From positions 1 through 32,899 of the IMG/VR virus record IMGVR_UViG_3300025728_000393: 32,899 nucleotides of DNA. The stretch is one strand, 5' to 3'. Source of the DNA: a virus. Below the pieces are notes generated by a model. It ran no database searches, had not been told where the DNA came from, and saw nothing but the letters and a program-made list of their open reading frames with translations. Below, in pieces: positions 1,013-31,767 of this stretch; positions within the stretch are counted from its first letter, which is position 1; each line of letters begins with the position of its first letter. The position numbers and the translations under genes are program-made.

Positions 1013-1538
1013 AAAATGCGTTAATTAATCACTTTTAGGGTATTTTATGCATATATTATTCACTTTCAACCGTATTCAAGAATAACCGTAACTAATATAG
1101 TGAAAACCATAATGAAGACAAATAAGCAGGGAATCGAATCATTTCCAGTCTTAGAGAGCCTGTCTCGCTTTGCTCGGCAGTCTCTATAAAACTCAAAATT
1201 ACTGATTAAACCTTCGTTTTTGTCGCACTGAAGTACTCCAAAGAACGCCGGGTTTGGTTTTGTCTTTCGACTAATGATTAGTACTTACTTGGCAAGTGAT
1301 TTGGCCTGACGTCTCCGTGAGTAACTACGCGGCTTCGCCTTGTGTGTTCGTGTTGAACTTACAGAAAAGTACTTAACAATTATCAACTGCTACAAAGTTA
1401 TTAAGCAAGTATCGCTGTGTAATAGATCCGTCGAAGTGAACGCCGGCCTCATAAAAATTCCAGTGTCAGAACACCCGAAAAAACTGGATCAGTTATGCCC
1501 TTTGTATGTACAAAGAAGTACTTGAAAGGGAGATGGGT

Positions 1539-2258
1539 ATGAACAGAAAGCAATTTATCCAGTCAGAGGGGGCTACTTGTAGCAACTGGACCTGGAGTTG
1601 GTCATTTGTTAATCACGACAAGAAAATGGTTATTTTTGGTTCTTGGGATGTTGAGAGCGAACAGGAAAGGGCTGTAATCCTTCGTGAGAAGTGGGAGTAC
1701 AACTCAAATAACAAAAGACAACTCGGATATGCTCAGGCACTTGAACACATTCAACTGGTGCATGAAGGATATGAACTGCACACATTTAAAATGGTGTTTT
1801 CAGAGCACCCGGATAACCCCGAAGTTGCGGTAATTAAAGATTTCGAGAGAAAACTTGAAAAGCGATATCTTAGAAAAGAAGGTACTGTCTGGTATGCAGA
1901 CTTCTTACCCAACCCATTCCCGGATGAAATTCCAGCATCAGAGAATTATGCGGAAGGTGCTAAAAAGCAGGTAACTGTAAACTCATACGAACGTGATCCA
2001 AGAGCACGACAGGCTTGTATTGACCACCACGGTACTACCTGCAAATGCTGTAATTTCGACTTCGAGAAAGTCTATGGTGAACACGGTAAAGGCTTCATCC
2101 ACGTACATCACATCAAGCCACTATATACCGTAGGAGAGGGCTATGTGGTAGATCCTATCGCTGACATGATACCCCTTTGTCCAAACTGCCATGCAATGGT
2201 GCACAGAGGTAGTGAAGTACTTACTATCGAAGCTTTGAAAGGGAGAATGGGAATTTAA
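1539..2258 (+). CDS. HNH endonuclease (McrA-like C-terminus)
   Basis: The C-terminal third carries a zinc-bound HNH nuclease: C168, C170 and C171, HVHH at 188-191, the DP..D.IPLCPNCHAM segment around 205-220 with C214, C217 and H218, and H222. This layout matches HNH domains of the McrA type, which cut DNA with one metal ion. The N-terminal 150 residues, with a Trp-rich stretch at 17-36, form a separate domain I cannot name; in similar proteins such a domain reads modified bases or another signal. I chose ATG 1539 because AAAGGGAG lies six bases upstream; ATG 1533 and 1506 are in frame but fit less well. It stands alone with no methyltransferase beside it, so a phage homing or competitor-cutting role, or defence against modified DNA, are all open. 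Confidence 0.8.
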   Translation: MNRKQFIQSEGATCSNWTWSWSFVNHDKKMVIFGSWDVESEQERAVILREKWEYNSNNKRQLGYAQALEHIQLVHEGYELHTFKMVFSEHPDNPEVAVIKDFERKLEKRYLRKEGTVWYADFLPNPFPDEIPASENYAEGAKKQVTVNSYERDPRARQACIDHHGTTCKCCNFDFEKVYGEHGKGFIHVHHIKPLYTVGEGYVVDPIADMIPLCPNCHAMVHRGSEVLTIEALKGRMGI

Positions 2259-5439: not shown

Positions 5440-7463
<2,024 letters not shown>

Positions 7464-14274: not shown

Positions 14275-14562
14275 ATGAGGGCGTTTGATAATTCACTATT
14301 AAACGTCCTGATTGATACCTTTGGTGAACCACTTACATTAGTGGGTGGTTCAACTGCTTTTAATGTGATCTTTGAATCCCAGACTGTTGCAATTGATACG
14401 GCTGAAGGATTCATTGAGACACAGGAAACCTATCTAACAACAAAAAAAGGCCAAATGGATTATTCCAGTACATTCACGTATTTGGGAAAACTTCAGGAAG
14501 TCTATAACATCATTGATGACCTATCAGGGGCGATCAATGTCTATTTTCGGGAATCAGAGTAA
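14275..14562 (+). CDS. Head-tail attachment protein (gpFII-like)
   Basis: This 95-residue, strand-rich protein starts two bases after the capsid stop and overlaps the next gene by one base. Its size, its strand-rich pattern (DTFGEPLTLVGG, FNVIFESQTVAID) and its place between capsid and tail terminator match lambda FII, which joins the filled head to the tail. Similarity is by pattern and synteny rather than a clear motif. Confidence 0.65.
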   Translation: MRAFDNSLLNVLIDTFGEPLTLVGGSTAFNVIFESQTVAIDTAEGFIETQETYLTTKKGQMDYSSTFTYLGKLQEVYNIIDDLSGAINVYFRESE

Positions 14563-14960
14563 TGAATCTTATTAAAATCAAGAATCATGTACATGATTCC
14601 CTTTTTTCGTTGGGTTTTCAGGTAAGAAATGCAACCACTATCAATCAAGATGCGGCAGATTACATTTTAGTAATCACTAATCTATTAGAACAAAATGAAA
14701 ACATCGCAATGGGTAACAGTACATACAGTTCATTAACACTTGATATTGTTTGTACATCGAAGGATGAAACAACAGTACAGGACGTTATGACACAGATTTA
14801 TGACTATGTACGTACTGATGATTTCAGCAAAGGTTTTGTAACACAGCAAGATATAGCAGTCAGTACTGTAACGATCATTTCCATCGCAGATGACACAGAT
14901 ACAACCAGCGGCATAAATACCATGATGTTAACAATTCAGTTAAATTACATATCGAGGTAA
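14562..14960 (+). CDS. Tail terminator protein (gpU-like)
   Basis: The 132-residue protein begins on a TAATG overlap with the head-tail attachment gene. It has a helix-rich start (KNHVHDSLFSLGFQV), a central LTLDIVCTSKDE strand and a C-terminal MMLTIQLNYI strand, fitting gpU-type terminators that cap the tube and join it to the head. Position before the tube genes agrees. No catalytic function is expected. Confidence 0.6.
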   Translation: MNLIKIKNHVHDSLFSLGFQVRNATTINQDAADYILVITNLLEQNENIAMGNSTYSSLTLDIVCTSKDETTVQDVMTQIYDYVRTDDFSKGFVTQQDIAVSTVTIISIADDTDTTSGINTMMLTIQLNYISR

Positions 14961-14964
14961 TATA

Positions 14965-17900
14965 ATGTCGTCAATTTTCCACGGTGGAAATACATACATC
15001 TTTTATAATACTGATAGTTCAAATGTACAACCAAATAGCGTTGACTATAAGAACATTGATCAGTTAGGTGCATTTCCACAAGTAAAAATCAATTCAAGTA
15101 ATACAATACTTGAAACTTATAATGACGAATGGGTACAGGTGCTTTCTGGCAATATGACAATTGATTCAGTATCAATCGTTGTACACTATATCGCAGATAA
15201 TGACTCTCACGTCTATCTAAACAATGCTTTTACCAGCAGTACAGCATTTCAAATTAAAATCGCACTATATGAATCTAACACTTCATTAGAACAACATTAT
15301 ATTGTACTAAATGGTCATGTTTCTGGATACCAGGACAGCGGCGATCAGAATCAAGTTTATGATCGTACATATACATTTGTTCCAACATCCATTGTTTCCC
15401 GTGGCACAGCTACAGATCCTGCTAACTTACGTGTTGGTGATTATGGCGTTGGTGCTGATGGTGAACTAATCCCACACGTGGAATCTGAAATTCCATCTGG
15501 TAACAGTTTTATCAAGGTTCCTGCTTTACGTACTGACAATACCGTTGGTGTTGATATGGGCGGCATTGCCTTTATTGATAATGGCGGTGATAAGTACGCA
15601 AACATTGTTGCAACCACAGAAGGGCATTTAAATCTATATGCTCGCAATAGTGATAGTGCATGGACTCAAATTCCACTTAAAAGTGATAACGATGCGTTAT
15701 ATGTGCCTATGGCACGTACTGTTAACGGCAAGGCATTAAGTTCAAACATTACTCTTAGTGCAAGTGATGTATCAGCGTTACCTTTAAGCGGCGGTACGCT
15801 TACTGGTGAATTGAATGGTACAACAGCTACATTCAGCGGTGCTTTAACCGCTTCATCTGCCACATTCAGCGGTACTGTATCAACAGGTGCTTTAACCGCT
15901 ACAACTGGTAATTTCAGTGGTGCATTAACTGCTTCGAGCCTAAACCTTACAACAGATCTAAGCATTGCTAATGGTGGTACAGGTGCGAGTACTGCTCAGG
16001 ATGCGTTAACAAATCTTGGTGCGGTCGCAAAAGCTGGCGACACAATGACAGGTACATTAAACGGTACGGCAGCAACATATTCTGGAACCATTACGGGACG
16101 TGAAATTAACACTACCTATCGCCAGACGATGAGCCGTAGTGATGCCTTTGCCCCATATACGATCATGAATCGTCTTGATCAGGTAGATGGAACATTACCA
16201 ACCGCAATTACTCAGGTTGGATATATTCAGGCAGATCTTACAACAACCGATGGTAGTCCATACGGTAGGGCTTTAGGCTCATTAGGTTTCGACTACGATA
16301 CATCCGGCGGCGGTAGAACGACACTTGCGGCATCAAACGTTGCGGGTACTAATTCATCCATGATCGTACTTGATGGTGATGAAGCACTTGCTACGGTAAC
16401 TGGTGCGGTAAAGGTTAACAGTACTTTGACAACTTCAGGTGCTATCAGCCGTTCAGGTTCCGGTACTTTAAGTTTTAATGCTAATAGGACTGATTCAGCA
16501 AATGATAGCTATTATGGTGTTCAGACAACCGCTGGTTCTGTCTATTTCGGTACAGGTTCAGGTACTAACTTTATTGTAAATGGAACACAAAGCAGTACTG
16601 GTTTATGGCTTTCAATGGATGGCACGAACGCGGCATTCAAAACCAAACTAACCGTACCAGCTATTGTAGTTCAATCGATAACAGGCTTGTCCGGTACTCT
16701 ATCGTTGGGTGCTGATGCAGTTAGTGCCTATGATGCAGTCACATTACGTCAACTACAGGCGGCAACGGGTACTGGTACTGCCACCATTAACGGTGTAATG
16801 AATAACTTCCTTGGTGCGGTCGAATGGTTCCTTGGAACACGTGCGGCAATGCCTGGTGGTCACTTGGCGGCAGATGGACAGTTACTTAGCCGTGCTACTT
16901 ACCCTGATTTATGGGCTGCAATCTCAAGTGGTGTTTTGAAGTCAGTAAGTGAATCAGCATGGCAGACAGTATCAAACCGTGGGATGTACTCAACTGGCGA
17001 TGGTTCAACAACTTTCCGTATGCCAGACTTGAACGGTATTCAATCAGGTTCTGTTAACGCCTTATTCCTACGTGGTGATGGTGGTATTTCTTCTGGAGTA
17101 GGCTCCGTAGGAATAAGTAAAGCACCAAATATTGTAGGTTCGGTAGATGGTAATACAGACTTTGGTCAAGCATCGTCTGCTACAGGTGCATTTAGAACTG
17201 GTAACGTTGCAAATGCGACCATGCAAGCAAACACAGGTGGTGCGTCTTCACATGCATTAAGTTTTGATGCAAGTCGCATCAGTTCTGTCTATGTAACTGG
17301 TGCTGCCGAAGTTAGCCCAAACTATGCTGCTGGTATCTGGTTAATACGTGTAAATGGTCTTTTCAGTGCTTCTAATACAAATTTCAACGTAATTACCGCA
17401 GATACAGCGTTACCAGCAACAGGAACTATAGTTTATGGTGGTGATATTCGTTCGGCATATCGTGTTGCGGGTGCTGAAACAAACGTTGCTCGTTTACGTT
17501 CTAAGTACATTATCGGTACTGACAAGTACGCATCATTATCTATTGATGGCGGTACTGGTGAAATGACAGTTAGTTCCAGTGGTGAAGTCAGTTCTTCTGG
17601 TACAAATACCTATCGTATAGCTAATTCAACTACAAGTGCTTTCCAGCGAATGGATAGTACAAACTGGTATTTCATGTTTTCAGATACCCCCACTGGTTCA
17701 TACAACGCATTGAGACCAATTTCTATTAATCAATCTTCCGGTACTGTAACTATGGGGAATGGTTTAGCATTCACCACTGGTGGCGGTGGAATTGTTATGA
17801 ACGGTAATGCAATTACAAGTTCAGGACAGATTGCATTTAGTTCAACTGCTAACGCAAGACAGACATTAATCAATACTGGTGTGACGGGTAACATAAGTTC

Positions 17901-18210
17901 ATTACGAATTCCAATCAGTACAACTCAGGCTGTGTTAATCCAATCTGGAACGAGTGTTATTTCTTTCAACTCAAGCGGTGAAGCAACATTAACTTTCCCA
18001 ACTGGTTTTACAAGTGTAAATACATTCGTATGTTCTAACGGTGATGCAAACGTACCTGGTGATGGCTATGTTGATAGCCTCGATAGTTGGTCACTAACAA
18101 CAACTGGTTCAAACATTCGTAATCGCCGTATTACCGGTGGCGGTTCAGTTATTTGGGTCACTGGTGCATACCGAATTAACTGGATTGCAACCGGACTTGT
18201 AAATATCTAA
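14965..18210 (+). CDS. Tail-tube / tail-fibre chimera
   Basis: Residues 1-150 resemble the tail-tube protein at 18689 along their length: IVVHYIADNDSH matches LTVNYLADDAVH, and YIVLNGHVSGY matches YVVYNGFVSAD. After a linker come fibre repeats rich in Thr/Ser/Ala/Gly (SGGTLTGELNGT, IANGGTGASTAQ), a phage collar-type domain at about 616-690 (PGGHLAADGQLL, YPDLWAAI, RMPDLNG), and a C-terminal tip (about 900-1081) ending WIATG. The Tfa-type chaperone gene follows ten bases later. The likely product is a tube subunit carrying a long fibre, placed on the outside of the tail or at one ring. The locus looks like a tube-gene duplication fused to a fibre. A separate tail-tip fibre that merely borrowed a tube domain is the alternative. 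Confidence 0.85.
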   Translation: MSSIFHGGNTYIFYNTDSSNVQPNSVDYKNIDQLGAFPQVKINSSNTILETYNDEWVQVLSGNMTIDSVSIVVHYIADNDSHVYLNNAFTSSTAFQIKIALYESNTSLEQHYIVLNGHVSGYQDSGDQNQVYDRTYTFVPTSIVSRGTATDPANLRVGDYGVGADGELIPHVESEIPSGNSFIKVPALRTDNTVGVDMGGIAFIDNGGDKYANIVATTEGHLNLYARNSDSAWTQIPLKSDNDALYVPMARTVNGKALSSNITLSASDVSALPLSGGTLTGELNGTTATFSGALTASSATFSGTVSTGALTATTGNFSGALTASSLNLTTDLSIANGGTGASTAQDALTNLGAVAKAGDTMTGTLNGTAATYSGTITGREINTTYRQTMSRSDAFAPYTIMNRLDQVDGTLPTAITQVGYIQADLTTTDGSPYGRALGSLGFDYDTSGGGRTTLAASNVAGTNSSMIVLDGDEALATVTGAVKVNSTLTTSGAISRSGSGTLSFNANRTDSANDSYYGVQTTAGSVYFGTGSGTNFIVNGTQSSTGLWLSMDGTNAAFKTKLTVPAIVVQSITGLSGTLSLGADAVSAYDAVTLRQLQAATGTGTATINGVMNNFLGAVEWFLGTRAAMPGGHLAADGQLLSRATYPDLWAAISSGVLKSVSESAWQTVSNRGMYSTGDGSTTFRMPDLNGIQSGSVNALFLRGDGGISSGVGSVGISKAPNIVGSVDGNTDFGQASSATGAFRTGNVANATMQANTGGASSHALSFDASRISSVYVTGAAEVSPNYAAGIWLIRVNGLFSASNTNFNVITADTALPATGTIVYGGDIRSAYRVAGAETNVARLRSKYIIGTDKYASLSIDGGTGEMTVSSSGEVSSSGTNTYRIANSTTSAFQRMDSTNWYFMFSDTPTGSYNALRPISINQSSGTVTMGNGLAFTTGGGGIVMNGNAITSSGQIAFSSTANARQTLINTGVTGNISSLRIPISTTQAVLIQSGTSVISFNSSGEATLTFPTGFTSVNTFVCSNGDANVPGDGYVDSLDSWSLTTTGSNIRNRRITGGGSVIWVTGAYRINWIATGLVNI

Positions 18211-18219
18211 GGATAGATA

Positions 18220-18633
18220 ATGAAATATTATTATAGCTTAAACCCGAAAGGTTTCTTTCGGGATGACATGCAACAGGTAATTGCTGATAACGGCCTGACT
18301 ATGGCTGATTTAGTGGAAATTGATGAAAATGATTATAACAATCTATTCAATCCCCCTGAAGGCATGTATATGGTTTTTGATGACAATGGGCCTCGTTTAG
18401 AGTTTATCCCAGCTCCAGATTATGTACTGATAGCAACTCAGAAACGCGATGCTTTACTTGCTGAAATGCAAGCGGCAACTTATTCACTAAACATGAAACT
18501 AAATCTTGGTCGTACACTTACTGACGAAGAAAAAGCAGTGCTTAATGCATGGTTAGATTATGCAGATGCACTAACCGCATTAGATTTAAGCACTGCACCT
18601 AATATAACATGGCCTGTAAAGCCAAATGAATAA
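18220..18633 (+). CDS. Tail fibre assembly chaperone (Tfa family)
   Basis: The 137-residue product has the Tfa layout: an N-terminal strand part that binds the fibre tip, the hinge APDYVLIATQKRDALLAEM, and the C-terminal WLDYADALTALDLSTAP.I.WP.KP signature typical of this family. Tfa proteins help trimerise the fibre C-terminus and may stay bound. It lies immediately after the tube-fibre chimera, which supports that protein as a working fibre. An inverted repeat (CCCGAAA/TTTCGGG, about 18243-18262) lies in its first codons. Confidence 0.85.
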   Translation: MKYYYSLNPKGFFRDDMQQVIADNGLTMADLVEIDENDYNNLFNPPEGMYMVFDDNGPRLEFIPAPDYVLIATQKRDALLAEMQAATYSLNMKLNLGRTLTDEEKAVLNAWLDYADALTALDLSTAPNITWPVKPNE

Positions 18634-18647
18634 ATAAACAAGAAAGT

Positions 18648-18663
18648 ACCGAAAGGATTCGGT
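18648..18663 (+). terminator. Hairpin before the tail tube gene
   Basis: ACCGAA and TTCGGT form a 6-base stem with a 4-base loop. No T-run follows, so it may be an RNA-processing or stability element that separates the fibre/Tfa insert from the highly expressed tube gene. Confidence 0.3.
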
Positions 18664-18688
18664 GCTAACCTTATAAGGATATTACCTA

Positions 18689-19147
18689 ATGGCATTTCAT
18701 ATTCAATCAGGTGCTAACATTCGTGCATCTGTTGGTACTGCTGGAAGTACTGAATCAGCAACTTTCACTGAAGTACCCCAACTGGCATCATTCACCACTT
18801 CAGGCGGTTCTTCTACCGTGATTGATGTGGTTGTATTCAATTCTGTCTTTAACGACAAACTTTTGGGTACTAAGTCCGTAAGCGACATTTCTCTAACTGT
18901 TAACTATTTGGCAGACGATGCTGTACACCAACAATTAGTTCAGGCGAACGAAAATCAAACAGCTATTCAGCTTAAATTAGAATATTTCCAGGACAATACC
19001 CGTACTGAAGGTTTCTATGTTGTATACAACGGTTTTGTATCTGCTGATACCCTTGCTGGTGACAAAGATGCGGTTGTAACACGTGAATTCACATTTGCTG
19101 TTACTGGTGGCCCTGTATCTTCAGGACTTATCGACGTAACCCCATAA
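18689..19147 (+). CDS. Major tail tube protein
   Basis: The 152-residue protein is strand-rich and fits the tail-tube fold: EVPQLASFTTSGGSST, then the long KSVSDISLTVNYLADD loop and strand, and the C-terminal TREFTFAVTG strand. It precedes the G/G-T chaperones and tape measure, the place of lambda V, but lacks V's C-terminal Ig-like domain. AAGGA lies upstream of the ATG. A hairpin after the gene (19167-19188) may adjust expression relative to the chaperones. The N-terminus of the chimera at 14965 is its paralogue. Confidence 0.8.
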   Translation: MAFHIQSGANIRASVGTAGSTESATFTEVPQLASFTTSGGSSTVIDVVVFNSVFNDKLLGTKSVSDISLTVNYLADDAVHQQLVQANENQTAIQLKLEYFQDNTRTEGFYVVYNGFVSADTLAGDKDAVVTREFTFAVTGGPVSSGLIDVTP

Positions 19148-19211: not shown

Positions 19212-19517
19212 ATGAACATAGAACAATTGAAGGCAGCATTGAAGCCTGCTTTATCCAAAATCACTCTATCAAATGGAATTGAATTATACACACATCGCCC
19301 AACTTTATCTGATCTCGAAAAGTGTACTACACCAAAAGGTACTCTGATTCACTGTATCTGTGATGAAACTGGCTATCATGTATTTGCCGATGGTGATGAA
19401 TCTGGAAAGATCAATATCAATACTGAAATTGATTCAGTTGTTGCAAATGAACTATTTGAAAAATCTATGTTGTTATGGGGCGATGATTCCACACAGGATG
19501 AAATCGAAAAAAAATAA
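19212..19517 (+). CDS. Tail assembly chaperone (gpG-like)
   Basis: The 101-residue protein follows the tube gene and ends in a Lys/Glu-rich stretch encoded by an A-run. In lambda-type tails gpG and its frameshift product gpGT bind the tape measure during tube assembly. The ORF ends at TAA just after the slippery sequence at 19508-19514, and the -1 frame is open from there into the downstream ORF, which supports this assignment more than its own sequence does. Confidence 0.8.
   Translation: MNIEQLKAALKPALSKITLSNGIELYTHRPTLSDLEKCTTPKGTLIHCICDETGYHVFADGDESGKININTEIDSVVANELFEKSMLLWGDDSTQDEIEKK
19508..19514 (+). promoter_or_regulatory. -1 ribosomal frameshift site (A AAA AAA)
   Basis: In the G frame the heptamer is read A|AAA|AAA right before the stop TAA. 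Slipping back one base gives an open frame (ATA AGA ACC GGT ...) that runs without a stop into the ORF at 19553-19915. Confidence 0.8.
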
Positions 19518-19915
19518 GAACCGGTGATCCCCGTATTAACTTCTGTCTAAAGATGATACATAAAAGGGGACTTTCACCGGATGAACTCGACCAGCTTGAT
19601 CCAGAACTATTCAATGCTTTATTCCTGTACGATGCGGTTATTGAACCAAACGGGGAAAGAATCGATCAGATTCGTTATGCAAACTTATGTCATTTGATAT
19701 TAATGTCTTCAGGTAATTTAACTGAATCAGGTATGAAGTCTGCAAAGGTAAGCGATTGGGATATGTTCGGATTGCTTGCCAATAAGACAACTAAGCAGAT
19801 TGCTAAAGATGAAGAACTTGCGAAACAAGAACGCGAAGTAAGTAACTTTAATGCAGTGGCTGAAATGATTAAGGCAGAAGCATTAAAGGATAAAAATAAA
19901 AATGGCAAAAAATAA
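19514..19915 (+). CDS. T extension of the tail chaperone (gpGT-like, by -1 frameshift)
   Basis: This frame continues the chaperone after -1 slippage; the joint reads IRTGDPRINFCLKMIHKRGL. It contains LSPDELDQLDPELFNALFLYD and a charged helical tail ending in Lys residues. An ATG at 19553 exists but without a clear ribosome binding site, so expression through frameshifting is more likely than independent translation. The fusion from 19212 to 19915 would be about 235 residues. It overlaps the start of the tape-measure gene. Confidence 0.75.
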   Translation: MRTGDPRINFCLKMIHKRGLSPDELDQLDPELFNALFLYDAVIEPNGERIDQIRYANLCHLILMSSGNLTESGMKSAKVSDWDMFGLLANKTTKQIAKDEELAKQEREVSNFNAVAEMIKAEALKDKNKNGKK

Positions 19916-22109
19916 ACAACAGATGATTTTTGAAATTGATGGTGATGTAACTGGTTTACGCCGTACATTAGCTCAGGCTGCTAACTCGATCCATTCATTC
20001 GGTGCTGAATCGGATGATATGTTTGGGGGATTCACAAAACAGTTTACAGACCTTACTGAAAGGTTCGGTGGTTTCAATACTGGTATTGTGGGCGTTGCTG
20101 GTGCTCTTGGTTTGGCTGCTGGCGGAATATACAGTCTTGTTAGCTCAAGTTCAGACTATGTTAAGACATACAATGAAGTTGCAAAAACTACAGGCGTTAC
20201 CGTTGAACAATTACAACGATTAGAAAAGCAATTTGCCAGCACTGGATTAACTGTAGAATCATTCGGGACAATAAATCAGGATACACTCGATAAACTTGGT
20301 GATGCATTCCGTGCCGGTGGTGGTGTTTCTGATGACTTGAAAGAATATGGTTTAGATATTCAACAGTACAACAAATATCTTAATCAAATGGATGGTGGTA
20401 TACAGGCCGTAATCCATACATTCTATGAAATGCAAAAAGCAGGGAAAACTAATGCAGAAATAACTAACGTTATGGAAACGTTAGCGAGTGATTCAAGTCA
20501 TTTGGTCAGTACTCTAAAAGACTATAGTACAGAGCAAGATGCATTAAATGCTATTCAATCACAACACATCATACTTACAAATGAGACAGCGGAAAAATAT
20601 CAAGATTTTGATAAAAAGATTACTCAGTTAGGCAGCTCCTTTCAGTTATTCAAGGCCGAAGCATTAGGGCCTACTCTTGATGATATACAAACACTATTCG
20701 ATTTGATGAATAAAGATTGGTCTAAGACCGATTTCATGCAAATGTTCCGTAACTTCTATTATGGTGGTGATAATGCTATTGCTAAATTCTTACGTGATGT
20801 TGATGGGGTAGATCCTGCTGGCATTGTGGGTACTAAAGAATGGAACGCAAAGCATAAAGACGATAAACCAGTACTGGAACAACCTAAACCCGCACCAAAG
20901 GGCGGATGGGTAAATCAGGAAGGGGAATCAGCCAAAGCAGCCGCAGCCGCTACGAAGGCAGAAGCAGCCGCTAAGGCACTTGCCGCAAAGAAAGTACAGG
21001 CAGAAAAAAACCTACAACAGACGCTATCACAGATTGGTTTATCCGATGGTGATGTTCGCGTTAAGACGTTCCAACGCCAGCAGGACGAGATAGTAACTAA
21101 AATCAAAGAATCAGCTAAGACACTTGGTAAATCTGAACAAGATACAAACTCTATGCTTACTCAGGCATACGATAGCCGTACTAAGAAGTTCAAGGAAATG
21201 ATCGATGATATGATTGGATATTCAGATCCTAATAAGAATCTGAAAACACTATCAGATAATATTGCCGGAATTGGTAATAATATGTCTAACGATCAGGCAA
21301 ATTACTTACTTGAACAACAAAACCAGCGTGTAGGTTTAAACAATTTTGGTAGTGATGAAAGTAACCCATTTGATAATTCAAATATACTTGCTCAGAAACA
21401 AAAAGACCTTCAGGACGAAATGCAACTTGAATTAACCCTAAATGCTCAATTGAATGAAAAATTAGGTACGAGCCATGAAGATTATTTGAAGCGTAAGAAT
21501 GCTATTACTCAGAAGTACAATACAAAGGCAATGGCAATAGAGGCTCAGAATACACAAGCCCAAATGGACTTACTCGCTAATAGTGCTGGCAGTATCGGTA
21601 CAACGATGGCGGGTGCTTTTGGTGAAGGTTCTAAGGCCGCACAAGCAGCATTCGCAGTACAGAAAGGCATAACCATTGCGAACACAGTGATGAAGATTCA
21701 GGAAGCTTTAGCAACTGCACTTGCTACGCCATTCCCGGCTAACCTTGCCAACTATGCAAGTATCCTTTCTATGGGTGCAAGCATTATTACCACGGCTAAA
21801 GGTGCTGCAAGTGGACAGGCTCACAGTGGTATTGATTCAGTACCGACAATGGGCGGCAAGGATGAAAGTACTTGGATTCTTCAGGCGGGTGAACGTGTTC
21901 TATCTAAGAGCAATAACCGTGATTTAACTCAGTACCTATCTAATGCTAATGCTAACGGCGGATCAGATAGTAATCCAGTAACTGTAAACGCACCTCTTAT
22001 TATTCAGGGAAGTACAAATATGAGTGATGCACAGATGAACGAGCTATTGAAGAAGAACTCTAACAGCGTATTACAATCTGTACGTTCAGCACAAAAAAGA
22101 AACTCATAA
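19902..22109 (+). CDS. Tape measure protein
   Basis: The 735-residue protein is long and helical, with a hydrophobic Gly/Ala segment near the N-terminus (about 60-82, VGVAGALGLAAGGIYSLV), an Ala/Lys-rich coiled coil (about 345-385) and the C-terminal HSGIDSVPTMGGKDESTWILQAGERVL segment typical of tape measures in lambda-type phages. At about 1.5 angstrom per residue it would set a tail near 110 nm. It overlaps the chaperone gene by 14 bases and is followed by a terminator and a minus-strand gene that interrupt the tail operon. Confidence 0.9.
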   Translation: MAKNKQQMIFEIDGDVTGLRRTLAQAANSIHSFGAESDDMFGGFTKQFTDLTERFGGFNTGIVGVAGALGLAAGGIYSLVSSSSDYVKTYNEVAKTTGVTVEQLQRLEKQFASTGLTVESFGTINQDTLDKLGDAFRAGGGVSDDLKEYGLDIQQYNKYLNQMDGGIQAVIHTFYEMQKAGKTNAEITNVMETLASDSSHLVSTLKDYSTEQDALNAIQSQHIILTNETAEKYQDFDKKITQLGSSFQLFKAEALGPTLDDIQTLFDLMNKDWSKTDFMQMFRNFYYGGDNAIAKFLRDVDGVDPAGIVGTKEWNAKHKDDKPVLEQPKPAPKGGWVNQEGESAKAAAAATKAEAAAKALAAKKVQAEKNLQQTLSQIGLSDGDVRVKTFQRQQDEIVTKIKESAKTLGKSEQDTNSMLTQAYDSRTKKFKEMIDDMIGYSDPNKNLKTLSDNIAGIGNNMSNDQANYLLEQQNQRVGLNNFGSDESNPFDNSNILAQKQKDLQDEMQLELTLNAQLNEKLGTSHEDYLKRKNAITQKYNTKAMAIEAQNTQAQMDLLANSAGSIGTTMAGAFGEGSKAAQAAFAVQKGITIANTVMKIQEALATALATPFPANLANYASILSMGASIITTAKGAASGQAHSGIDSVPTMGGKDESTWILQAGERVLSKSNNRDLTQYLSNANANGGSDSNPVTVNAPLIIQGSTNMSDAQMNELLKKNSNSVLQSVRSAQKRNS

Positions 22110-22111
22110 AC

Positions 22112-22133
22112 CCCTCTCACGAGGGTTTTTTAT
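22112..22133. terminator. Rho-independent terminator after the tape measure gene
   Basis: CCCTC-TCAC-GAGGG is followed by a run of six T residues. Its right arm overlaps the stop of the minus-strand membrane gene. Transcription of the downstream tail genes must pass it, either by antitermination or from a new promoter. Confidence 0.75.
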
Positions 22134-22728
22134 TTATAAATTCATCAACAACAACCCTGTTTTTATTGACTTTTCTAAACAATCGAATCATCTGAAAAGA
22201 TAAGTAACTTGAAATGCTCATGAGCAAGATATATGCATGAATATTAAATGATTGAGCCATATGAAGTAAATTTGAGTAATCAATTTTCATTTTAAAATAT
22301 AAAGTTATGAAGGCGATTAGTGTGCTTATTGAGAAAATAAACAGTAACCACATCCAGAAAAAATCGGATTTGGATACTTTTTTAAGTGAGAAATCAGTGT
22401 GGTTAAAATAGCCGCCTAAGTTACTGAATAAATCAATATTAAGATTATTATCTTTTATCCAAGTTAGAAAGCTTGTTATCTCTTCAATTTTTTTAAAGTT
22501 GAAGTTGTTCGTAGCATTGAACTTCTCAATGTCATGACGTTCATTTGAGAATTCTTCAATTTGCTTGTTGTAATATGCCTTCTCACCAATAAAAGTTGAC
22601 CACAACTTGTTCATTATGATCATCGATGAGCCTCTTAATAATCTCATTCTGATTGCAAGGATTATCAAGAAAAGAGGGAACGCAATGGAAGTAAGGTAAG
22701 GCCAACATTTTTCAATTATATCGAGCAT
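22117..22728 (-). CDS. Membrane protein inserted in the tail operon
   Basis: With ATG 22728 the product is 203 residues. It has one N-terminal TM segment (about 10-27), a charged helical middle, a second TM near 122-145 (FFWMWLLFIFSISTLIAFI) and a third near 160-180. An upstream in-frame ATG (22791) overlaps the next tail gene and is unlikely. It is antisense to the tail operon, flanked by a terminator, and has no GTAC where backbone genes have many; all signs of a moron. It may belong to the DUF6216 type of membrane proteins, but I am not sure. A role in superinfection exclusion is possible, not shown. Confidence 0.65.
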   Translation of the reverse strand: MLDIIEKCWPYLTSIAFPLFLIILAIRMRLLRGSSMIIMNKLWSTFIGEKAYYNKQIEEFSNERHDIEKFNATNNFNFKKIEEITSFLTWIKDNNLNIDLFSNLGGYFNHTDFSLKKVSKSDFFWMWLLFIFSISTLIAFITLYFKMKIDYSNLLHMAQSFNIHAYILLMSISSYLSFQMIRLFRKVNKNRVVVDEFINKKPS

Positions 22729-22765
22729 GATAAATAAGATATGGTTATTAATAGGGAAGTAAACA

Positions 22766-23323
22766 ATGCCACTTTTTTCTAAAAACATCAAGATAGGCGA
22801 CTATACATTGTCATCAATTGAACCTCGCTACAGCAATCGTAGTTGGACAGGTTCCCAAATACAGAGAAGTACTGGCATTCAGTATTACTCAATTCAATTC
22901 ACATTGAACTTCAATAAGAAGAACATACAGGAATATCAAAACTTCATCGCCACCTATGGACAAGGGGCAGCCTTTTCTATGGACTTGGGACACTTGAGTA
23001 CATATTACGGTTCACAAACAACAGCAGTGCGTGCAACAGTCGCTGCTGCTAAAGGTGTAAGTGCTATCACATGTAACGGCAATACACTTGAGGTAGGTAC
23101 TCTCATTCAGTTTCAAAACCACAAGAAGATTTACCGCATTATAGGTCACGTGGGTAATGTACTGACAGTATTCCCGGCATTACTTGCTTCAGTGGCAATA
23201 AATGAAACCGTTACATATAACAATGTTCAGGGTTCATTTACACTCGACGTGGACAATGATCTAAAGCTCAATGTTCAAAACGTAATGAGTATTACCCTCA
23301 AAGCAACTGAGGACTTTACATAA
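22766..23323 (+). CDS. Minor tail / distal tail protein (gpM-like position)
   Basis: The 185-residue protein starts after AGGGAAG at seven-base spacing. It is strand-rich, with an N-terminal part (IGDYTLSSIEPRYSNRSWTG) like distal tail proteins, a central insert (about 85-145) and a C-terminal LKATEDF. It is the first tail gene after the tape measure and overlaps the next by one base. Position and fold pattern suggest the ring between tube and hub; family assignment is tentative. Confidence 0.6.
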   Translation: MPLFSKNIKIGDYTLSSIEPRYSNRSWTGSQIQRSTGIQYYSIQFTLNFNKKNIQEYQNFIATYGQGAAFSMDLGHLSTYYGSQTTAVRATVAAAKGVSAITCNGNTLEVGTLIQFQNHKKIYRIIGHVGNVLTVFPALLASVAINETVTYNNVQGSFTLDVDNDLKLNVQNVMSITLKATEDFT

Positions 23324-24371: not shown

Positions 24372-27300
24372 ATGGGTTCAGGTGGAAACGGAATTCTTGG
24401 GGCTATCATTACCGCCGTTGCGGTTTTCGCGGCTGCTTATACTGGTGGTGCTTCTCTTGCCGCTGCTGCTGCTTGGGGGGCTGCTGCTGGTGCTGCATCA
24501 TTCGTCGCAACAAGTATGATGTCACAATTGGGACTTGCGGCAACAAGTGATACGGCAACAACACTTAGCCGAAGTACTGCACCAACTTCAGGGATGCCAA
24601 TTCTATATGGTGGTGACAAGCCTAATTTAAACAGTGGTTGTTATATTAAAACAGGTTCTATCGTTAACTGGTTTAATGTACAGAATAGTGAATCACAATA
24701 CTTGTTCACAAGTCATGCTATAGCTATGGGTGAAATCAAAAATGTTATCAGCCAAATCTATATTGATGACGAACCAGTACTTGCACAATCAATTACAACT
24801 GAAGGTGTAGTATCAAGTGATAAGATCTTATCTAAGTACCGTCCATATCTTCAATTGGAAGTATATTTTGGTAAGGATAATTATACATCGCCTAAAGTAC
24901 TCGCAGGTCAATATGCTGGCGTTAATTGGAATAACTCAACATTCCATGGTAACGATGTTGTACAGATCTACACAGTAATCAAGAAGACACAAGACAGTTT
25001 AGAGGATTCAATCCTAATCAATGATAATTATGTACTGACTTGCGAGGCTAAAGGCCGTCTGATCATTGACCTTGTTGATTTACAGACTCGTGATGCGTCA
25101 AACGGGCCTTCACAGATTTATGATCTAATCACTAATACAGAGTTTGGTATGGGATTAGATCCCAACATCATTGATTTAGATAGTTTCCGATCATGTGCTC
25201 AGTACTGCGAAAACTTTGAATATTACAGTAATGGTGCTATTGACTATAGCCAGACTTATAAAAGCAACATTGAGCTAATTCTTCAGACATTCGGCGGAAT
25301 TCTCTATATTCATGCCGGTAAGATGTATATGACTGTCGATGTACAAGGCACTTCAGTTGCTACCTTCAATGAGACTAATATCTATGGTGATTTCAAAGTA
25401 ACAACTTCAGGAATGTCCGATTATGCGAACATAGTTGATGCAACATGGAAGAATGTTAATAACAGCTATTCCGATGATGTACTTCGTATTCCATCAGATA
25501 TTACTCAGGATGATGTAGTACTTTCAGATGGACAGGTAATTACTGTTTCTCGCGATTATACTTGGTCATATGATAAAACCGCTGTTGCTGCAATGGTCAA
25601 TATTGACTTGCTCAAATTGAAGTATTCACAAACGCAAGTAAGTTTTGCAACTATGGATGGTTGGGATTTGAAAGTATGGGACATTATCAGTGTTTCATTT
25701 AACGAAGTGGGTTATACCAATAAATTATTTCGTATTCTCAGCAAAGACATTCTAACAAGTCAGGACAGCATAGGATTAGTTCAGATTACCGCAGTTGAAT
25801 ATCACAATGAAATTTATCAGGGCGTTGATCCGGGTGTATGGCCTGTTGATGGTTCAATTAGTCAGGTTGTTAATGTAATCCCCCCAACTAACCTACAGGT
25901 TACAAAAGTGGGCGGTACTGTCGCTAATGGTAACGTGGTTGTAATGGATTGGGACGCCTCAGTTGATCCATATCTTAGAGGTTATTACGCCTATTATAGA
26001 ATCGCGGGTACAACAACATGGACATTCGCGGGGCAAGTATCGCAGTACGTTACAAGTTATGAATTGTTTTCATTACAAAAGGATCAGCAGTATGACTTTG
26101 CTGTCGCGGCATATAATAACCTTGGTTTTATCTCAAGTAAGTTAACGATCAATGGTGTTACACCAGATTATGAATTTACCTTGCCGGGTGTTGTAAACCT
26201 ACACTTAGTGAACTTTGAAGATTCACCAACGAGTACAAACTCAAGCGATTTTATGTTTGAGTGGAATGATCAATCAAACCTAACCGTTAATGGCAAACCG
26301 TTTAAAACATACTTCACTCGTTATGAAGTCATTGTATATAACTCAAGTGGTGTTGCTCAGAAATCGTACTATACAACCGACAATACATTTATCTATACAT
26401 TGGCAATGAACAAGGCCGATCAGATAGGGCGTAACGTTAAGATCGGCGTTGTCGCATGGGGTGCTACAAGTGGTACATACTCACCTGAAGTACAGCTATC
26501 AGTGAATAACCCACAGGCACCGCAGCTACAGAATTTTGTTGCTCGTTCGGGCATTGGTCAGATCGTGTTTACATGGGATGACGCAAACAGGCCGGATGAT
26601 TACGCGGGGATCTTGTTCCTTGTATCAAGTTCTGAAAACTTCTCTACGGGTGTTCAATATTTCACAACTGATAAATGGTACACCGAATGGGTAACAGTAC
26701 CTGATGGGCAGTATTACATTAAGGCGGGTCAATATGACGTATTTGGTATGGATGGAATAATCTATACCGATATGATTCCATTCCTTCAACAAACTGACAT
26801 TCCATTTAGCCAACTTAATAATGATGTTGTTGATGGTATTCTTGCAAGTTCCGAATTTAATGAAGTTGTTGAATCTATCATTGAAGAAGTGGGTAGTACT
26901 GGATATTACCTTTCTGTTAACTCTAATGGTTATGTTGCTGGTATAGGTATCAAAGTTGATGGTGTTGAACAAACATCCGTATTCACTATTATCGCTGATC
27001 GATTTTCTATTATAAGTTCTGCTACAGCGGGTAATACAACTAAGGTATATCCATTTGTAGTACAGAATGGTGTTACATGGTTGAACTCGGCAATCATTCA
27101 AAACGCGGCAATAGGCACGGCACAAATTGCAGACTTGGCAGTATCCAACGCGAAGATAGCTAACGCCTCAATCAATGCCGCGAAGATTCAGGACGCCGCA
27201 ATAGGTTCTGCTCAGATAGCTAACACTATTCAGAGTAATAACTACGTGGCTAACTCGCAAGGATGGCAAATAAAAAAGAATGGTACATTTTACATCAATG

Positions 27301-27392
27301 GTAATGGAAATGGTCGATTGGTAATAAATAACACACAAATATTGGTATATGACGCTAACAACGTGTTACGCGTTAGGATGGGATTATTTTAA
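24372..27392 (+). CDS. Tail tip hub / host-specificity protein (gpJ-like)
   Basis: The 1006-residue protein begins with a Gly/Ala-rich hydrophobic stretch (ILGAIITAVAVFAAAYTGGA), followed by PILYGGDKPNLNSG and IYDLITNTEFGMGLDP, segments typical of J-like hubs. From about residue 505 come two or three fibronectin type III-like modules (PTNLQVTKVGGT, YAYYRIAGTTTW, YDFAVAAYNNLG). The C-terminus has a gpJ-type region (FTIIADRFSIIS) and Ala/Ile repeats (AAIGTAQIADLAVSNAKIANA) likely forming a trimeric stalk. It probably forms the central tip and contacts the host receptor. It is followed two bases later by the small tail-tip genes. Confidence 0.88.
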   Translation: MGSGGNGILGAIITAVAVFAAAYTGGASLAAAAAWGAAAGAASFVATSMMSQLGLAATSDTATTLSRSTAPTSGMPILYGGDKPNLNSGCYIKTGSIVNWFNVQNSESQYLFTSHAIAMGEIKNVISQIYIDDEPVLAQSITTEGVVSSDKILSKYRPYLQLEVYFGKDNYTSPKVLAGQYAGVNWNNSTFHGNDVVQIYTVIKKTQDSLEDSILINDNYVLTCEAKGRLIIDLVDLQTRDASNGPSQIYDLITNTEFGMGLDPNIIDLDSFRSCAQYCENFEYYSNGAIDYSQTYKSNIELILQTFGGILYIHAGKMYMTVDVQGTSVATFNETNIYGDFKVTTSGMSDYANIVDATWKNVNNSYSDDVLRIPSDITQDDVVLSDGQVITVSRDYTWSYDKTAVAAMVNIDLLKLKYSQTQVSFATMDGWDLKVWDIISVSFNEVGYTNKLFRILSKDILTSQDSIGLVQITAVEYHNEIYQGVDPGVWPVDGSISQVVNVIPPTNLQVTKVGGTVANGNVVVMDWDASVDPYLRGYYAYYRIAGTTTWTFAGQVSQYVTSYELFSLQKDQQYDFAVAAYNNLGFISSKLTINGVTPDYEFTLPGVVNLHLVNFEDSPTSTNSSDFMFEWNDQSNLTVNGKPFKTYFTRYEVIVYNSSGVAQKSYYTTDNTFIYTLAMNKADQIGRNVKIGVVAWGATSGTYSPEVQLSVNNPQAPQLQNFVARSGIGQIVFTWDDANRPDDYAGILFLVSSSENFSTGVQYFTTDKWYTEWVTVPDGQYYIKAGQYDVFGMDGIIYTDMIPFLQQTDIPFSQLNNDVVDGILASSEFNEVVESIIEEVGSTGYYLSVNSNGYVAGIGIKVDGVEQTSVFTIIADRFSIISSATAGNTTKVYPFVVQNGVTWLNSAIIQNAAIGTAQIADLAVSNAKIANASINAAKIQDAAIGSAQIANTIQSNNYVANSQGWQIKKNGTFYINGNGNGRLVINNTQILVYDANNVLRVRMGLF

Positions 27393-29163: not shown

Positions 29164-29595
29164 ATGAATCCGTGGAAGTATGCGGATGAACTTACTGAAG
29201 AAGAATTGATTAGCGGCGGGTATGTTGGCTTTGTGTACGCTTTCCATTTTGAGGACGGTTCCTGGTATTTGGGTTCAAAGCAGATGTACAAGCGTGTTAA
29301 GGACACGAGCAAACTGAAGGATACCAGTACTGAAAACGGCTGGCGGGACTATAGCTCAAGCTCAAAGATAGTTAACGCGAAGATTGAAGAAGGGATTGAG
29401 TACACCCGTACAATACTTTGGCCTTTCACGAGTATGAAAGAAACATTACTTGTTGAGGCTGCTTTGATTATGTCAGTGGGTTTACATCCATCATGTATCA
29501 ACCTCGCGTTGATGCACAAAGTAAGATTACCTAATGCGAAGGATCGCAGGCGTCTATATGGCGTAATACAAGAAATACAAGGATGGTTAACATAA
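29164..29595 (+). CDS. GIY-YIG family nuclease
   Basis: The 143-residue product has the GIY-YIG core: VYAFHF (24-29) and WYLGSKQ (34-40), then WRDYSSSSKIVNAKI (60-74) and E98 in ETLLVEAALI, in the order and spacing of phage GIY-YIG nucleases. The strict GIY triad is VYA here, common in phage variants. It starts three bases after the lysozyme stop and overlaps the next gene, so it belongs to the lysis operon. It may be a free-standing homing endonuclease or help in packaging or anti-competitor cutting. Confidence 0.75.
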   Translation: MNPWKYADELTEEELISGGYVGFVYAFHFEDGSWYLGSKQMYKRVKDTSKLKDTSTENGWRDYSSSSKIVNAKIEEGIEYTRTILWPFTSMKETLLVEAALIMSVGLHPSCINLALMHKVRLPNAKDRRRLYGVIQEIQGWLT

Positions 29596-30873: not shown

Positions 30874-31767
30874 TTACCAAAACTTAAATTTACCAAGCAG
30901 CTTAGAACCAACTGCGATTAGTGTTGCTGCCGCTGCTTCAACTACCACATCTTTCACTGAATGCCAGGCATCACCAACCCATTCTTTAACTGAATCCCAC
31001 ACGCCTTTTTCTGCTTTTTCCGCCATGGTTTCTGTTTTTACGCTTTCTCCTGCTTCTCGGTAAAATCCGTACTTTTTTTCGTTTGGGATCACATCTATAA
31101 TCAACTCCATAAGTTCGGAAAGGTTGTAATTCTTCTTCGATGATGTTGCAATAATATTTTTGGCAGGCATGTCAAAGGCACGACTAATTTCAAGCACTTT
31201 CTCGCTTACGCTATGCAGTTGTAAGCTGGTCGGTTTGTTCTCTGCTTTACTCCAGTATCTTTCCCCATCATCATCTTCCATGGGTTCAATTTTTTCAGTA
31301 GCACTGATAGCAAATATCACTGGGCATTTTTTAATGTTTGGAAGTAGGATTTCTTGGTATGCCTTTTGTGAGTCAGCATATTGTCTTTCATCTGATTTTA
31401 TAACCCAAACAACAACATCCAATTCGCTTACTTTCTCTTTGTATAACTTCAAATACTCTTCGTTTCTTGCGACGGTTTCCGCAATTCCTGGGAAATCGAC
31501 GATAATTACACCGCCACCTTCACCATTTTCAGGTTTCAAGTGTATTTCTTGAATTTCTCTAGTTCCAGCGGCGACATGGCTCACTTTAGCAATGTCGCGA
31601 CCAAATAATGCATTACAAAGAGAGGACTTACCAACGCCAGTAGAGCCCCAGATACCAATTTTAGGTGTGTAGTCTTTTATTTCTTTTATCTTTGCTTCAA
31701 TAGCTTTGCGTACTTTTTCTCTATTAGTTTCTTTCTGAAGGTCTATCTTTTCCATGATATTATCCAT
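30874..31767 (-). CDS. YfjP/YeeP-type GTPase
   Basis: The 297-residue protein has G1 GSTGVGKSS (41-49), a Thr-containing AAGTRE segment (67-71), G3 DFPG (91-94) and SATEKIE (155-161) in the G4 region, the pattern of the YfjP/YeeP/YkfA GTPases of E. coli cryptic prophages, related to IRG-like GTPases. The C-terminus has a Trp-rich stretch and an Ala/Val hydrophobic helix (about 275-290), which may touch membranes. ATG 31767 lacks a strong ribosome binding site; ATG 31755 is an alternative. It is convergent with the lysis operon and has few GTAC sites, so it is likely cargo. A role in host defence or stress is possible. Confidence 0.85.
   Translation of the reverse strand: MDNIMEKIDLQKETNREKVRKAIEAKIKEIKDYTPKIGIWGSTGVGKSSLCNALFGRDIAKVSHVAAGTREIQEIHLKPENGEGGGVIIVDFPGIAETVARNEEYLKLYKEKVSELDVVVWVIKSDERQYADSQKAYQEILLPNIKKCPVIFAISATEKIEPMEDDDGERYWSKAENKPTSLQLHSVSEKVLEISRAFDMPAKNIIATSSKKNYNLSELMELIIDVIPNEKKYGFYREAGESVKTETMAEKAEKGVWDSVKEWVGDAWHSVKDVVVEAAAATLIAVGSKLLGKFKFW

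Follow-up and report, generated by a model that had tools for sequence, protein, structure and literature searches.

The side tail fibre of phage lambda, Stf, is a trimer that relies on the chaperone Tfa, in a tail that also has the central tip protein J; the stf and tfa genes follow J, and no tube domain is present in Stf. Here we describe a protein of 1081 amino acids (aa) coded by a 32.9-kb linear virus record of IMG/VR (IMGVR_UViG_3300025728_000393; the full 32,899 nucleotides are termed the window), in which a paralogue of the tail-tube protein (TTP) is joined to a complete tail fibre. This protein, termed the fusion, resembles the lambda system in its trimeric-type fibre, Tfa chaperone and accompanying J, but its gene precedes that of the TTP and its anchor is a tube paralogue.

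Several known tube subunits have additional domains on the outside (the Ig-like domain of lambda, the FN3 domain of SPP1 and lactococcal TpeX), and T5 provides a tube paralogue that serves as a fibre platform. This protein, p140, is described as having arisen by duplication of the TTP gene and as the platform of the side fibres (PMC10038345); the fusion too is a duplicate of the TTP gene lying close to it. The T5 fibre, however, is a separate protein held by the p132 dodecamer (the LtfC collar), whereas in the fusion it forms one covalent chain with the tube domain (PMC10038345, PMC10713586). The TTP of T5 forms trimers of tandem-domain subunits that include an Ig domain, while that of the window is a single domain of 152 aa; and the position of the p140 ring has been solved, where that of a fusion ring is a prediction. 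SPP1 gp17.1/gp17.1* and lambda gpV share with the fusion the tube fold and a C-terminal decoration leaving the exterior at the same site of the fold (PMC8718954), but their decorations are single Ig or FN3 domains, with neither a separate paralogue nor a fibre. In the MTP-TpeX protein of lactococcal 936 phages a tube subunit is extended C-terminally by a host-binding part, and it stands beside unextended subunits (PMC6669499). It differs in arising from one gene by programmed frameshift and in carrying a carbohydrate-binding module, in a total of 470–530 aa; the fusions are separate paralogues with a trimeric-type fibre and comprise 548–1351 aa. The original prediction, made from the letters of the window, held known tube decorations to be far smaller, which is true of the Ig-like domains but not of the lactococcal tube proteins of 470–530 aa (PMC6669499). 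In type VI secretion, evolved Hcp is likewise a specialized tube paralogue with a large C-terminal extension beside a plain tube protein, the extension there being secreted cargo and not an outward host-binding fibre (PMC3235180, PMC8262886).

In open-access papers (PMC), no account was found of a tube paralogue joined to a complete tail fibre. The report on the T5 tip regards p140 and p132 as a landmark of T5-like phages, and states that other siphophages, especially lambdoid ones, must anchor their side fibres differently (PMC10038345). For a large set of lambda-like phages the fusion may be the answer, the tube gene having been duplicated and a fibre fused onto it, and it illustrates a way in which fibres can gain a new attachment site.

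The N-terminal domain of the fusion is a paralogue of the tail-tube protein

The two genes under comparison are organized as follows.

14965-18210, + strand: fusion open reading frame (tube paralogue and tail fibre), 1081 aa
14965..15414, + strand: tail-tube-paralogue domain of the fusion, residues 1–150, from its similarity to TTP, PHROG 158 and the lambda gpV tube fold
15415..15681, + strand: linker and 'shoulder' of the fusion, residues 151–239, with the motif GDYGVG...GNSFIKVPA...W, from alignments and separate strands in the model at 181–236; homologous in phage DCP80
15682..18207, + strand: fibre shaft and tip of the fusion, with VNGKALSSNITL-type repeats, Collar (620–654), Gp34_trimer (853–921) and a variable C-terminal tip
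18689..19147, + strand: plain TTP, 152 aa; PF08813 (E=2.5e-7), PHROG 158 (E=1.5e-21), gpV fold

The original prediction had noted that the first 150 residues resemble the TTP at 18689, and the comparison bears this out. Residues 1–158 of the fusion are 31% identical to TTP over 117 ungapped residues (BLASTP, E=7e-17), and PHROG 158 ('major tail protein') is matched both by fusion residues 4–159 (2.1e-10) and by TTP (1.5e-21), as well as by 41 of the 41 fusion N-termini tested. PF08813 (Pfam) is reached by TTP and not by the fusion, and no NCBIfam model matches either protein.

Residues 1–252 of the fusion were modelled by AlphaFold with 41 homologues (pLDDT 74). The model comprises a tube barrel, in which the pLDDT of most blocks is 78–90, and a small separate shoulder at residues 181–236. 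The barrel has the traits of the tube fold, namely a β-sandwich, a flanking helix and a long β2–β3 loop. Residues 6–150 match the tube of lambda gpV (Foldseek E=5.8e-7; VIA Z 14–15 with 135–141 residues aligned), and structure comparison also matches this domain to the tubes of many other siphophages. The model of TTP has low confidence (pLDDT 47) and was for that reason used for topology alone; it has the same order of strands and helix and the same best matches (Z 13–14). The shoulder (residues 151–239) is kept among the fusions and is not present in the TTPs aligned with them. Structure prediction of the N-terminal part, a check proposed for the original prediction, returned a tube fold, and fusion residues 6–150 are confirmed as a genuine paralogue of TTP. 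An origin as a frameshift-extended tube protein, as in SPP1 gp17.1* and TpeX, was rejected: the fusion and TTP are separate genes, 31% identical, each a single continuous reading frame.

Occurrence, gene order and origin of the fusion

Fusion loci were collected from IMG/VR contigs, a contig of Pantoea sp. RIT-PI-b, metagenomes and bacterial genomes, giving 94 in total, of which a few are the same prophage present in two collections. The gene-order search that had been suggested with the original prediction gave a consistent answer: in 80 loci a complete fusion (548–1351 aa, median about 1000; 51 distinct at 93% identity) is followed by a plain TTP. The order runs portal, capsid, (terminator), fusion, Tfa or a separate fibre of 745–1081 aa where present, TTP, two genes in the positions of the tail assembly chaperones G and GT, tape measure, Dit and J, and the departures from it are truncated or broken loci. 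The genes around the fusion and TTP in the window are these.

14562..14960, + strand: putative tail terminator, 132 aa, directly 5′ of the fusion; from position, conservation in near relatives and a weak Pfam tail terminator match (E=0.023)
18220..18633, + strand: Tfa-type tail fibre assembly chaperone, 137 aa; PF02413 (Caudo_TAP/Tfa, E=2.4e-24), PHROG 188
19212..19517, + strand: G-position tail assembly chaperone, named by gene position; conserved order
19553..19915, + strand: GT-position tail assembly chaperone, named by gene position; conserved order
19902..22109, + strand: tape measure protein, 735 aa; PHROG 13674 (E=7.2e-78)
22766..23323, + strand: distal tail protein (Dit), the proposed tailward neighbour of a fusion ring; PHROG 1302 (E=2.5e-16)
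24372..27392, + strand: J-like central tail-tip protein, 1006 aa; PHROG 31 (E=2.2e-58), PF09327 (E=1.3e-25)

Among genomes sampled from the family of RIT-PI-b the fusion occurs in 13 of 392, and order- and class-level samples added a single weak match to the tube domain. Within ~50,700 phage records it is present in Escherichia phage DCP80 only, where a fusion of 698 aa (25% identity over 253 residues, E=9e-20) is followed by a separate fibre of 745 aa and then by TTP. A short-peptide search of viral contigs confirmed no relative of the DCP80 fusion, a DNA-level search of phage and Escherichia coli genome collections gave no close relatives, and a protein search of plasmids found no fusion. 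The phages that bear the fusion are a widespread and nearly undescribed group infecting Pantoea and its relatives, and in many Enterobacterales prophages that otherwise lack annotation the fusion is probably the host-range gene.

The DCP80 record itself (PQ671644.1, locus L011) is filed as a T4-like Gaprivervirus; its positions 1-24000 (about 24 kb) code for a siphophage head and tail, including a tape measure and a J-like protein. The annotation contains two rIIA entries, and the record may combine two phages as a chimera.

A tree was built from 51 fusion tube domains and 51 TTPs, with Vibrio TTPs as the root; in it the fusion domains form one clade beside the TTPs (SH-aLRT 97), requiring a single change; the longest branches (DCP80 and L039/L040) are less surely placed. 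Distances between phages are correlated for the two proteins (Spearman 0.79), with the fusion evolving faster (mean distance 0.60 vs 0.42). The single clade and the correlated distances point to one old duplication, after which the pair appears to have been inherited together. The related Vibrio phages have TTP directly after the terminator, without a fusion, which fits duplication and gain of a fibre at that spot.

The fibre part has a conserved anchor and an exchangeable tip

The remainder of the fusion was predicted to be a fibre with a collar and a tip followed by Tfa, and the domain matches agree. Residues 471–1002 are covered by tail-fibre PHROGs, and Pfam identifies Collar at 620–654 and Gp34_trimer at 853–921; Peptidase_S74 and gp37_trimer domains occur in the fusions of relatives. 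The next gene matches PF02413 (E=2.4e-24). The adjacent Tfa holds for the window but not as a general trait: it is found 3′ of the fusion here and in loci L068, L084 and L087, and most relatives lack it. Four of the eight other fusions scanned have a C-terminal Peptidase_S74 chaperone instead, and the type of chaperone (Tfa or S74) varies along with the tip.

Sixteen pairs of phages have tube domains 87–99% identical, shoulders 88–100% and TTPs 94–99%, while the last 250 residues of their fusions are 18–31% identical. A constant anchor with an exchanged tip in all 16 pairs is the behaviour of a receptor-binding protein. Judged from these comparisons, the main part of the fusion is a trimeric-type tail fibre with a conserved anchor and an exchangeable receptor-binding tip, for which the tube domain and shoulder would be a natural plug. 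No other fibre gene was found 3′ of J within the window, so the fusion is probably the sole side fibre.

Some loci depart from the single-gene form. In a two-part variant (L037, L038, L039, L040, L105, L106, L111 and L007) a short fusion of 548–699 aa is followed by a fibre-like gene of 745–1081 aa and then by TTP, and the two genes probably code for proximal and distal half-fibres. In L100 (fusion at about 8001) and L103 the fusion is split into a tube reading frame of 168 or 177 aa and a following fibre reading frame; decay, sequencing error or frameshifting may be the cause.

A proposed specialized ring of the tail formed by the fusion

Known tubes stack chiefly via the β2–β3 loop, which contacts the adjacent ring and its N-terminus (PMC8718954, PMC9022992). 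In DT57C the hairpins of TTP meet the upper face of TTMP, a TTP-like ring that sends its own loops tailward to Dit and is surrounded by the fibre collar (PMC10713586); in T5 the corresponding place is that of p140, described as a TTP duplicate (PMC10038345). The stacking loop of the fusions has a mean net charge of −3.7, compared with +0.45 in TTPs, and has conserved acids at E50 and E55. Of an Arg-Lys pair that 47 of 51 TTPs have in full, one or the other residue remains in 20 of 51 fusions. Most of the N-arm motif (I, F, G) is retained, as is much of the barrel. A loop that has diverged and been recharged, on a subunit with its N-arm and barrel kept, favours a special ring over decoration of the shaft. 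The original prediction had offered both arrangements; the ring gains from the divergence of the loop and the precedent of T5 p140, and no specific support was found for the shaft.

With a probability of about 0.6, the fusion is a side fibre anchored by a tube paralogue that forms one specialized ring, whose most probable location is the tail tip, immediately above Dit. In a lambda-like siphophage, the 1081-aa protein would then act as side tail fibre, with a duplicated tail-tube subunit as its anchor. Residues 1–150 would occupy a place in the tail wall, from which the chain would leave the barrel where the Ig-like decoration of lambda gpV leaves it, cross the conserved shoulder and trimerize into the fibre, with Tfa helping it to fold here and, in many relatives, an S74 chaperone at the C-terminus. 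The 152-aa TTP would build the rest of the shaft and J would form the tip. The six subunits of the ring would supply two trimers. The comparisons establish the homology, the fold, the conservation, a single duplication and the swapping of tips, whereas ring formation, copy number and position are inferred.

Several points weigh against this assignment. TTP-conserved positions are kept at 4 of 17 sites in the stacking loop compared with 13 of 27 in the part that follows, a difference that is not significant (Fisher p=0.12), and the loop (residues 45–63) is of low confidence in the fusion model. Shine-Dalgarno energies and start-site folding are equal for the fusion and TTP, giving no support for a low copy number of the fusion. 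Finally, the fusion gene adjoins that of the terminator and not that of Dit, which could point to the neck. There the fusion would be the last, head-proximal ring under the terminator, and its fibres would be neck or collar fibres folding along or away from the tail. The gene lies between the putative terminator and TTP, siphophage gene order often mirrors virion order, and neck fibres (the neck passage structure) exist in lactococcal 936 phages (PMC6669499). A neck location is nevertheless doubtful, since the tailward loop would stack on a TTP ring and should resemble the loop of TTP, whereas it is diverged and acidic.

It is unlikely that the fusion co-polymerizes with TTP along the shaft, where many complete receptor-binding fibres would decorate the tail in a ratio set by the hairpin 5′ of the TTP gene. 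The tube fold of the fusion is complete, the two start sites are equal in strength, and minor extended tube subunits are known from SPP1 (3:1, PMC8718954) and as TpeX (PMC6669499). Yet the stacking loop has lost positions conserved in TTPs, trimeric fibres of 400–1200 residues on up to ~180 subunits would be bulky, and the hairpin, which precedes the TTP gene alone, suggests that TTP output is set separately. Dit, the baseplate hub and p140 are modified tube folds with other contacts (PMC10038345), so in the fusion, too, the fold could serve for docking in solution or outside the tube, for instance in a collar round it, and never enter the wall; the close sequence relationship with the phage's own TTP and the largely conserved N-arm motif fit the wall better and make this very unlikely. 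In a few relatives (L082, L100, L103 and L123) the fusion is broken or split, as a chance fusion, an assembly error or a degenerate gene in one contig might be, but that explanation is refuted by the 80 complete fusions with TTP, 51 of them distinct at 93% identity, from metagenomes and bacterial genomes.

A hairpin precedes the TTP gene

Two RNA elements lie between the Tfa and TTP genes.

18645..18666, + strand: RNA hairpin 5′ of the TTP gene, with a stem of 9 base pairs and an AGGA loop; covarying sequences across loci
about 18672-18679, + strand: Shine-Dalgarno sequence of the TTP gene

In the 62 bases 5′ of the TTP start a stable hairpin is present in 44 of 49 loci, compared with 2 of 49 for the fusion start. 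The hairpin of the TTP gene is located 20–30 bases from the start. A script counted the pairs, working away from the loop, as MAFFT left the stems out of register; over 42 distinct sequences the counted stem positions each show five or six standard pair types, and GGA is present in or at the loop in 35 of the 42. GGA-loop hairpins are rare elsewhere, within 803 kb. No Rfam family matches in the window, and the hairpin is not a listed family. It has no following U-run and is thus unlike an ordinary terminator. The hairpin is a possible means of increasing or controlling TTP output in relation to that of the fibre. It could do so by protecting the mRNA, through ribosome standby, or as a CsrA-type site whose GGA is paired with that of the Shine-Dalgarno sequence.

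Other genes of the window

A reverse-strand gene lies between the tape measure and Dit (22117-22791, − strand) and is identified as DUF6216. Reverse-strand genes occur in the same gap in L004 (14482-15126, − strand) and L005 (13321-14130, − strand), and the insert looks like a lysogenic-conversion gene. An OLD-family ATPase/TOPRIM nuclease is coded at 5440-7266 (− strand; PADLOC Old E=8.5e-72, Pfam AAA_15 and OLD-like_TOPRIM) and is possibly an anti-phage defence gene aboard the phage. An HNH endonuclease gene is located at 1506-2255 (+ strand), and a SegE-type GIY-YIG endonuclease-like gene at 29164-29592 (+ strand), 3′ of the lysozyme. The end of the late region has a gene for a small GTPase of dynamin/MMR_HSR1 type (30874-31767, − strand), with weak similarity to LeoA/LeoBC.

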